DNA from: Bacteroidaceae bacterium
Lineage (GTDB): Bacteria; Bacteroidota; Bacteroidia; Bacteroidales; Bacteroidaceae
NCBI GenBank assembly: GCA_017442185.1
Contig: JAFSAT010000025.1
Span: forward strand, 62,001 to 126,000
Length of the DNA: 64,000 nucleotides
Direction: 5' to 3'
Positions within the stretch are counted from its first letter, which is position 1, and every line of letters begins with the position of its first letter. Shown here piece after piece: positions 44,717 to 63,604 of this stretch. Made by a program: the position numbers and the translations under genes. The notes below the pieces were generated by a model that searched no databases, was not told where the DNA came from, and worked only from the letters and a program-made list of their open reading frames with translations.

Positions 44717-44765
44717 TGTTTGATTTTGTGTAGGGTTTATATGTGGTCGCAAATGTGTTTGTTTG

Positions 44766-44839
44766 TGACTCCGCTGGGATTCAAACCCAGGACCTTCGGA
44801 ACCGGAATCCGATGCTCTATTCAGCTAAGCTACGGAGCC
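44766..44839 (-). tRNA. tRNA-Arg (CCG)
   Basis: 74 nt on the minus strand: acceptor GGCTCCG/CGGAGTC, D arm AGCTTAGCTGAATAGAGC, anticodon loop TTCCGGT (CCG), T arm CTGGGTTTGAATCCCAG. CCA is not encoded. Its upstream region is the tandem hairpin array. Confidence 0.95.
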
Positions 44840-45293
44840 ATCATGCCATGGCTGCGAGTGGCTTCTCTTCTCGCAATGGACAAAGATACGAATAAACGAG
44901 CGAAATAATATCAAGCTTGCTTGAATATTTTTTCTTAGCGAGTGGAAGTATCTTCGAGGCTTGCCTCAGTGATACGAATAAACGAGCGAAATAATATCAA
45001 GCTTGCTTGAATATTTTTCTCAGCGAGTGTAAGTATCTTCGAGGCTTGCCTCAATGATACGAATAAACGAGCGAAATAATATCAAGCTTGCTTGAATATT
45101 TTTTTCTCAGCGAGTGGAAGTATCTTCGAGGCTTGCCTCAAAGGTACGAATAAATTATTCAAAAATCACGTTAATTTGTAAAAAACGCTCTTATTGCCTT
45201 TTTCTCCTCTGCAATATCCGGAATTTTCTCGACTGCGATGTTTGATAAATCGCTCGCTTTACCGTAATAAATCAGAAAATATGCTTCTCGATT
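44840..45293. other. Long gap upstream of tRNA-Arg and asnA, occupied by the tandem array
   Basis: The array fills 44885-45154. The remaining 140 bp up to the asnA promoter is A/T-rich with no gene. The tRNA-Arg promoter must lie within the array or at its edge: minus-strand TATCTTTG at 44888-44881 is the closest -7 match. Confidence 0.6.
44881..45154 (-). repeat. Tandem array of three ~86-bp hairpin units with embedded -7-like boxes
   Basis: Units begin at 44885, 44971 and 45056, with a truncated fourth start at 45143. Unit lengths are 86, 85 and 87 bp and they differ at only a few sites. Each holds CAAGC-TT-GCTTG (inner hairpin) and GAGGC-TT-GCCTC, whose stem extends outward to GTATCTTC on one side and AAAGGTAC (or a variant) on the other. 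Minus-strand boxes at unit borders read TACCTTTG, TATCATTG, TATCACTG and TATCTTTG. A related single unit is at 177-270. Confidence 0.85.
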
Positions 45294-45396: not shown

Positions 45397-46434
45397 ATGA
45401 AACTTTACGAACTTCCGGGCGAATATAAACCGTTGCTCGACCTTAAACAGACTGAGCTTGCCATAAAGCAGATAAAGGAGATTTTTCAGTTGAACCTTTC
45501 ATCCTCGCTCTGTTTGAGGCGTGTAACAGCTCCGCTGTTTGTGTTGCAAGGCACCGGGCTTAACGATGATTTGACAGGAACCGAGCATGCGGTAAGTTTT
45601 CCTATTCAAGATATGAATGGGGCTGTGGCCGAGGTGGTACATTCGCTTGCAAAATGGAAGCGTGTCACCCTTGCCGATTATGAGATTACTCCCGGGCATG
45701 GTATTTATACGGATATGAATGCCATTCGTGCGCATGAAGAGCTGGATAATCTTCATTCTCTGTACGTAGATCAATGGGATTGGGAGCGTGTCATGACCGA
45801 GGATGAGCGAACAGTGGCATTCCTTTGCAGTGTGGTAGAGGATATTTACACTGCTATATTACACACAGAATTTGCCATAAGCGAACATTATCCGCAGCTG
45901 GTACCGTCGCTGCCAAAGAAAATTACTTTTATTCACTCGGAGGAGCTGCTTGCAAAATATCCAACCCTAACGGCTAAAGAACGCGAAGAACGCATAACAC
46001 GCGAGTTCGGCGCCGTATTTATAATAGGTATAGGTGGAAAACTGAGCAATGGCGAGCCGCACGATAATCGTGCACCGGACTATGACGATTACAGCACGCG
46101 CAACGAGGCCGGCTATGAGGGGTTGAACGGCGACCTTCTCATCTGGTCGGAGGTTCTGGGAAAAGCAGTGGAGCTTTCATCGATGGGTATACGCGTGGAT
46201 AAAAAAGCCCTGCTCCATCAGTTGCAACTGTCGGGAAAAGAGGAGCGTCTAGAATTATATTTTCACAAACGACTGCTCGCCGGAACATTGCCGTTGAGTA
46301 TTGGTGGCGGAATAGGACAGTCGCGTTTGTGTATGTTGCTTTTGAAAAAGGCACATATAGGCGAAATTCAGGCGAGCATCTGGCCCTGCGAAATGCGTAG
46401 CGCTTGCAAGGCTTTGAATATACCTCTTATTTGA
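45397..46434 (+). CDS. asnA: Aspartate-ammonia ligase (AsnA-type asparagine synthetase)
   Basis: 345 residues, slightly longer than the 330 of E. coli AsnA. Fold of class II aminoacyl-tRNA synthetases. Conserved segments: LCLRRVTAPLFVLQGTGLNDDLTGTE, VHSLAKWKR, GIYTDMNAIR, LHSLYVDQWDWE and GGGIGQSRLCMLLLKKAHIGE. It makes asparagine from aspartate, ammonia and ATP, unlike the glutamine-using AsnB. It is first in a two-gene unit with ung, 19 nt apart. Confidence 0.96.
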   Translation: MKLYELPGEYKPLLDLKQTELAIKQIKEIFQLNLSSSLCLRRVTAPLFVLQGTGLNDDLTGTEHAVSFPIQDMNGAVAEVVHSLAKWKRVTLADYEITPGHGIYTDMNAIRAHEELDNLHSLYVDQWDWERVMTEDERTVAFLCSVVEDIYTAILHTEFAISEHYPQLVPSLPKKITFIHSEELLAKYPTLTAKEREERITREFGAVFIIGIGGKLSNGEPHDNRAPDYDDYSTRNEAGYEGLNGDLLIWSEVLGKAVELSSMGIRVDKKALLHQLQLSGKEERLELYFHKRLLAGTLPLSIGGGIGQSRLCMLLLKKAHIGEIQASIWPCEMRSACKALNIPLI

Positions 46435-63326: not shown

Positions 63327-63359
63327 TTTGTCTTTTTTCATTTTTTTGCCGTATATTTG
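63327..63359 (+). promoter_or_regulatory. Promoter of the cobalamin riboswitch and receptor
   Basis: TTTG at 63327-63330 and TATATTTG at 63352-63359 with 21 nt between them, just upstream of the riboswitch. Confidence 0.75.
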
Positions 63360-63369
63360 GCACGTCTTG

Positions 63370-63540
63370 TTCCGCAAAAGCCTTTCTCTAAGGTGCGGAT
63401 TAAAAGGGAAACAGGTGTAAGTCCTGTGCAGTCCCGCTGCTGTAAGCTCCAAAAGGTGCTTCATCCATTCATAAAAACCACTGCCACATAAGGCGGGAAG
63501 GTGGATGAGGCGGAGCGAGCCAGAAGACCTGCAAGACGAG
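63370..63540 (+). ncRNA. Cobalamin (B12) riboswitch
   Basis: The element has the core segments in order: AAAAGGGAAACAGGTG near 63402, GTCCTGTGCAGTCCCGCTGC, then CCACTGCCAC, GGCGGGAAGGTGGATGAGG and the B12 box AGCCAGAAGACCTGC (63518-63532). It binds adenosyl- or other cobalamins and typically shuts off translation or transcription of B12 uptake genes. The distance of ~70 nt to the receptor start allows an expression platform; ACCTT/AAGGT near 63557-63575 may be part of it. Confidence 0.93.
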
Positions 63541-63604
63541 TCAACAGCTCATAACACCTTCGAGGAAAGGTTCGAGTCTTTGTTTTATTTCAACAACATA
63601 CGTC

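Follow-up and report, generated by a model that had tools for sequence, protein, structure and literature searches.

The array described here lies beside a tRNA gene in a 64,000-nt stretch of DNA from a member of the Bacteroidaceae, referred to throughout as the window. The gene, for tRNA-Arg(CCG), was found by ARAGORN on the minus strand at 44765–44839. On the array's other side is a plus-strand open reading frame of 345 aa (45397–46434; ORF list and orthologue search) that we take, by recognition rather than family search, to be aspartate-ammonia ligase (AsnA). The array itself, at 44881–45154, is one tandem repeat with a period of 85, 3.2 copies and 94% matches (TRF), and repeat searches of the window resolve it into three units, spaced 86, 85 and 87 apart, and a border remnant. 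Units 1 (86 nt, 44885–44970), 2 (85 nt, 44971–45055) and 3 (87 nt, 45056–45142) all lie on the plus strand. They are matched also by two covariance models: R1, built from 85 copies of the repeat, detects unit 2 at 44966–45061 (83 bits), and R2, made from divergent Bacteroidales relatives, detects units 1 and 3 at 44880–44976 and 45051–45148. The remnant, CAAAGGTACGAATAAA (45139–45154, plus strand), is the right border, recognized from its sequence and from a family-wide comparison of left and right borders; it repeats the left border GATACGAATAAA (44885–44896) in the manner of a target duplication. An earlier, sequence-only reading had given correct starts for the three units (44885, 44971, 45056) and for the remnant (45143).

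Read towards the tRNA gene, the borders are TACCTTTG (45146–45139), TATCATTG (45059–45052), TATCACTG (44974–44967) and TATCTTTG (44888–44881), as that reading gave them, and the outer two fit TAnnTTTG, as it remarked. This motif is the -7 consensus of the Bacteroidetes primary sigma factor (PMC7366714). The left border of unit 1, TATCTTTG (minus strand, 44881–44888), is a -7 box 41 bases upstream of the 5' end of tRNA-Arg, and occupies the position that GCGAAGATA holds in the same promoter at empty sister loci. Three plus-strand features follow within the unit: hairpin H1, AAATAATATCAAGC-TT-GCTTGAATATTTTT (44903–44933; consensus and covariation counts), flanked by the conserved boxes CGAGCG and GCGAGTG; an arm, TATCTTCG (44949–44956), which by pairing counts forms helix P1 with the unit's own left border; and hairpin P3, GAGG-CTTG-CCTC (44956–44967), marked by compensated stem variation in the 85 copies. 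The arm recurs at 45034–45041 and 45121–45128, and both hairpins recur in units 2 and 3. Inside the array, a terminator scanner detected nothing resembling a terminator. A second, single copy of the family (CAAAGATAGCAACAAACGAG..., locus L062) lies on the plus strand at 172–270, with an R1 score of 92.3 bits and an E-value (roughly calibrated, as are all those of the covariance models) of 4.6e-18. The window also contains a cobalamin riboswitch (63350–63550, plus strand; Rfam RF00174, 116 bits).

The copy at 172–270, the dispersal of the family across the genome, and the pairing of the arm with the left border all go beyond what was noticed at first. A search with one unit at the level of blastn gives 66 matches in the organism's own genome, at some 37 places, singly or in tandem groups of up to four units. 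R1 finds 77 units there, and 10–99 per genome across the genus, with all 44 of 44 genomes positive. The sequence-only reading had proposed such a search, taking absence from other loci and genomes, together with a lack of mapped starts at the borders, as the sign of a local duplication without function; absence is clearly not what is found, and genus genomes carry copies by the dozen. R1 also detects divergent relatives elsewhere in the Bacteroidales (GCAAAGATAGTGAAAGGCGAGCGCAGAAAGCCAAACTTGTTTGAACTTTTTGCCGAGCCGCATCCTATTTTCGC, for example). Of 247 Bacteroidales genomes sampled, 25, from 18 genera and our own included, are scattered positives with R2; the sample is one genome per species, mostly MAGs, in which arrays break contigs and related genomes are not independent. 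Among 295 genomes from the rest of the Bacteroidota sample R2 is positive in none, a result that doubles as a control for specificity. Named carriers include replicons of Segatella copri DSM 18205, S. hominis and Phocaeicola massiliensis. In S. copri DSM 18205, one unit (L372, 1501–1586) lies upstream of an annotated gene for an HU-family DNA-binding protein. A pattern scan of named genomes yielded, among the matches listed, only uncultured Bacteroidales MAGs, nearly all labeled as from ruminant or deer gut; among viral contigs there was no exact-pattern match to either subfamily. Four contig ends in genome G000 fall inside arrays (C30:1, C36 end, C38 end and C14:1; L063, L067, L075 and L076). 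Because they carry the same locus-specific border letters, C30 and C36 probably meet in one array, and C38 and C14 in another.

Once all units are turned to face the same way, the arrays are locked in orientation to the gene on their left, which we call the fixed-side gene. In 118 of 125 non-redundant arrays (p 4e-27) transcription of this gene leads away from the array, and its called start lies a median of 53 bp from the array's edge, whereas the gene on the right is oriented at random (62:63). The same lock is seen in 25 of 31 arrays from other Bacteroidales families. Genes were called by a simple longest-ORF method, and some of the 7 arrays in 125 that break the rule do so, perhaps, on account of small genes that went uncalled. 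Fixed-side genes include the housekeeping genes miaA, mazG, nadA, purD and ribH, names assigned by recognition of the sequence rather than by family search. The unit's left edge, CAAA[G/T]ATA, is the fixed-side gene's -7 box, TAnnTTTG, read on the opposite strand, and the base after the box, in the promoter direction, is usually C. Exact TAnnTTTG occurs at 131 of 152 gene-proximal borders (86%), at 107 of 148 internal borders (p 0.004 for the difference between these two), and at 70 of 95 distal ends. The suggestion of intact boxes at the outer borders holds for this array and only partly as a rule, because most internal boxes across the family match as well. To judge by sequence, the borders may still work as -7 boxes. 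The arm sequence TATCTTCG had been taken for a -7 variant used elsewhere in the window, and this is probable: TATCTTCGC is found upstream of a same-strand ORF at five of its six occurrences in the window, and so TATCTTCG is probably a genuine and common native variant here. TAT[AC]TTTGC is so placed at two of its three occurrences.

Two of the three explanations first proposed for the array turn on these boxes. One holds that the tRNA-Arg promoter was duplicated locally, in tandem, to provide several start sites; it accommodates the -7-like box at every border and the better conservation of the box nearest the gene. The 60 bases between the boxes, however, are a family dispersed at dozens of genes, not tRNA-Arg promoter DNA, and empty orthologous promoters lack them. 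A chain of duplicated promoters fails as the origin of the array because the whole unit, not just the box, is dispersed, and we regard it as very unlikely. According to the other, the boxes would act as a sink, titrating the primary sigma factor. Each genome does have tens of extra -7-like boxes, but these are probably few beside its native promoters, the inner ones are less well conserved, and a sink would need neither fixed orientation nor hairpins. None of our findings requires a sink, and we find it scarcely credible.

Orthologous promoters were compared across the genus. Among 30 loci of the genus examined for each, own genome included, four are occupied at tRNA-Arg/asnA, two at nadA and one at purD. 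Empty tRNA-Arg promoters mostly read GCGAAGATAC..., that is, TATCTTCGC at -7; occupied ones all read CAAAGATA, and the letters of their hairpins differ between species. Since most sister species have no unit at the orthologous promoter, the family is a scattered one and not a conserved regulon. Non-coding, high in copy number, dispersed, and present or absent at orthologous sites, the repeat in these respects resembles a MITE. The tRNA-Arg promoter of genome G008 (L219) holds a variant unit that is longer by about 70 bases between its GCGAG box and its arm and has a different P3 stem, GAACATATGTTC.

Insertion may have left its mark in the borders. The left border equals the true right flank at three variable positions in 73, 44 and 43 of 86 arrays, where shuffling predicts 39.5, 26.5 and 21.5, and the excess fades some ten positions inward. 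Several targets that depart from consensus are clearly duplicated: CAAAATTGTTACAA (L168), CAAAGATGTCAAT (L032), AAAGATATTGACAA (L078) and a longer one at L083. True target duplication is not universal, however, since about half of the right flanks match the left border over CAAANATA only. Insertion at a staggered cut, and integration by way of the 8-base CAAANATA homology, would both be compatible with these data. Before a ribH-like gene (L083, 1780–1848), a 5'-truncated unit lies between the two copies of a 27-base direct repeat, CAAAGATANTAAAAAAGCATGATAAAT, far longer than the usual border copies.

The consensus of the unit begins gCAAA[G/T]ATAnn-AACAAACGAGCGAG-AAATATnAAGC-TT-GCTTnAATATTTTTC-ACAGCGAGTGCAGnn- and continues -TAT[C/A]TTCG-AGG-TTTA-CCT-CAAA[G/T]ATAnn. 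It comprises, in order, the left -7 border, the near-invariant boxes ACAAACGAGCGA and CAGCGAGTGCAG on either side of H1, the arm, P3, and the border copy. The two hairpins per unit that were originally proposed are real, and compensatory changes are found in 85 relatives. In these copies, 91.5% of cells are paired, and 20 of 26 pairs show double changes, with 251 double-changed cells, compared with 84 after shuffling and no more than 40 after sliding, for a structure drawn after the sequences had been seen. P3 stems vary widely, with compensation. The arm, TAT[C/A]TTCG, is an inverted -7-like sequence, and the enclosing helix forms between it and the left border of the same unit; the quasi-inverted ends of the unit, CAAAGATA and TATCTTCG, are both -7-like boxes. 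At the variable position of this helix, 99 of 130 pairs are Watson-Crick and 24 are G-U (51 and 15 expected), and none is A-C. Where the two borders are unlike, 55 arms pair with the left one alone and eight with the right one alone (p 1e-9), and a simple palindrome, in which the arm pairs only with the neighboring right border, was set aside on this count. The arm CCATCTT of S. copri stands opposite a left border AAGATGG, and the right border there reads AAGATAC. L168 (JAFOCD010000081.1) has a border, CAAAATTGTTACAA, other than a -7 box; it is duplicated all the same, and the arm there, ACAATTT, is complementary to it.

The mismatches hint at which strand folds. Read on the plus strand, 107 cells are G-U and 50 are A-C, most of the latter at two poorly paired positions, and at one position of H1 G-U is the commonest pair. 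Because G-U rather than A-C is tolerated, the plus strand, antisense to the fixed-side gene, would appear to be the folded one, as RNA or as single-stranded DNA. Folding of the array as a whole is better than that of shuffled sequence on either strand (z -5.5 and -4.6). These features might belong to a structured regulatory RNA or a protein-binding module, the plus strand being transcribed, or the DNA bound, so as to tune the adjoining promoter, with dispersal reflecting recruitment. The strong covariation, the use of wobble pairs on the plus strand, and the two near-invariant boxes would all suit such a module. Against it, occupied promoters vary between species and serve unrelated housekeeping genes, the folding of a single unit on the plus strand is unexceptional (z -0.9), and the signatures of the fold are also expected of mobile elements recognized as single-stranded DNA. 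Compensatory changes could come, too, from palindrome-correcting template switching, a process not expected, for its part, to retain the conserved A-C mismatch and bulge. A regulatory module seems to us unlikely, if less so than the two explanations built on the boxes.

We favor instead, with a probability of roughly 0.7, the view that a non-autonomous MITE- or REP-like Bacteroidales element, one that inserts at the -7 box, has expanded locally in tandem to give the array. A small mobile element aimed at -7 boxes, with the array as its footprint, was the third of the original proposals, and the one that has stood: copies are dispersed, orientation is fixed, target sequences appear duplicated, and most orthologous sites are empty. 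The folded unit would be copied in trans, by a putative enzyme, into another -7 box; alternatively, host recombination would act through CAAANATA, the short homology on either side of each unit. The -7 box at the target would be duplicated on insertion, leaving the gene with a box beside its start and with the element as new upstream DNA. Arrays of one to five units would then arise by slippage or by unequal exchange from border to border; tandem units have locus-specific letters in common. Movement, mobilization in trans, tandem growth, and any effect on the gene are what we infer from comparing sequences. Some units (L270, upstream of purD; L069, L080, and L073 near 5700) sit inside a longer MITE-like repeat, the ends of which resemble inverted TTAGAAGCTGTTTAAATTTT, and so units may also travel within another element.

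The obvious candidates for a mobilizing enzyme are scarce. Within the limits of assembly completeness, Y1 transposase (PF01797) is absent from the organism's own genome (94% complete) and from 39 of 44 genus genomes, and reverse transcriptase (PF00078) from the same genome and 27 of the 44. A retroelement is accordingly disfavored in this genome, and so is mobilization by a RAYT, or Y1, transposase. REP and BIME elements mobilized by RAYT (Y1 HUH) transposases are nevertheless, along with MITE-like elements, the nearest in kind: those of Escherichia coli and Pseudomonas are likewise short, dispersed, intergenic and hairpin-forming, and occur singly or in small tandem groups, and the Bacteroidales unit is itself a short, dispersed, intergenic palindrome whose stems have conserved imperfections. 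It differs in its anchoring at a -7 box, its single promoter orientation and its duplication-like borders, and most of its carriers have no Y1 transposase, although all 44 genomes of the genus carry the repeat. To our knowledge, border copies that resemble target duplications are not expected of HUH transposition. That this is a RAYT-driven REP element is, we think, highly improbable.

A bolder version of the mobile-element reading, which we offer tentatively and consider unlikely, is that of an order-wide class of selfish element, poor in enzymes, that would home to the -7 box of the primary sigma factor by means of the complementary part of its own fold. The arm would serve as a guide, or else would be rewritten from the target at insertion, and changes in the target (AAGATA, AATATA, AAGGTA, AAATTGT) would in this way come to be matched by changes in the arm.

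Other small elements can be compared with the repeat. Generic DDE-type MITEs are also non-autonomous, with quasi-inverted ends, and duplicate their target, as the Bacteroidales unit may do; in that unit, however, we recognized no constant terminal inverted repeat belonging to a known IS, the borders vary in length and match, and the target is a functional promoter motif. The Correia/NEMIS elements and the pneumococcal BOX and RUP elements are small, non-autonomous stem-loop elements found near promoters, and some carry promoters themselves. They differ in sequence and in host, and the Bacteroidales unit is distinguished from them by ends that are -7 boxes and by an arm whose changes track those of the left border. 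The nearest comparable element within the same order is BrickBuilt of Porphyromonas gingivalis, a MITE/minisatellite in which a 23-nt repeat lies between a leader and a tail with IS5-like terminal repeats; it, too, is intergenic, tandemly repeated, assembly-breaking and promoter-bearing, and in the parts of its description available to us anchoring at a -7 box does not appear (PMC4596501). Its 23-nt repeat, AGAYCATARTATCCTCTCRTRTG, has no match in the window at up to three mismatches. Rfam gave no relevant match to our repeat, whether at the gathering score or at E up to 5, and no description of it turned up in the literature searched, a scope that excluded most subscription journals and all preprints. 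This folded Bacteroidales repeat of about 85 bases is thus apparently undescribed. We rate its kind, the small non-autonomous palindromic repeat, as known, and its fixed anchoring at the -7 box, and the arm that co-varies with the border, as new.

In many gut Bacteroidales, cultivated Segatella copri among them, these repeats lie immediately upstream of ordinary genes, and they differ between species. Anchored as they are at promoters, they could be a common cause of regulatory variation, and of breaks in assemblies. If homing proves correct, host promoters become at once the landing sites of the element and its outward-facing -7 boxes. Because it lands on the -7 box itself, the family is a natural test of how an element might recognize a bacterial promoter; it is a test, as well, of the tolerance of a promoter for what lies upstream of that box.
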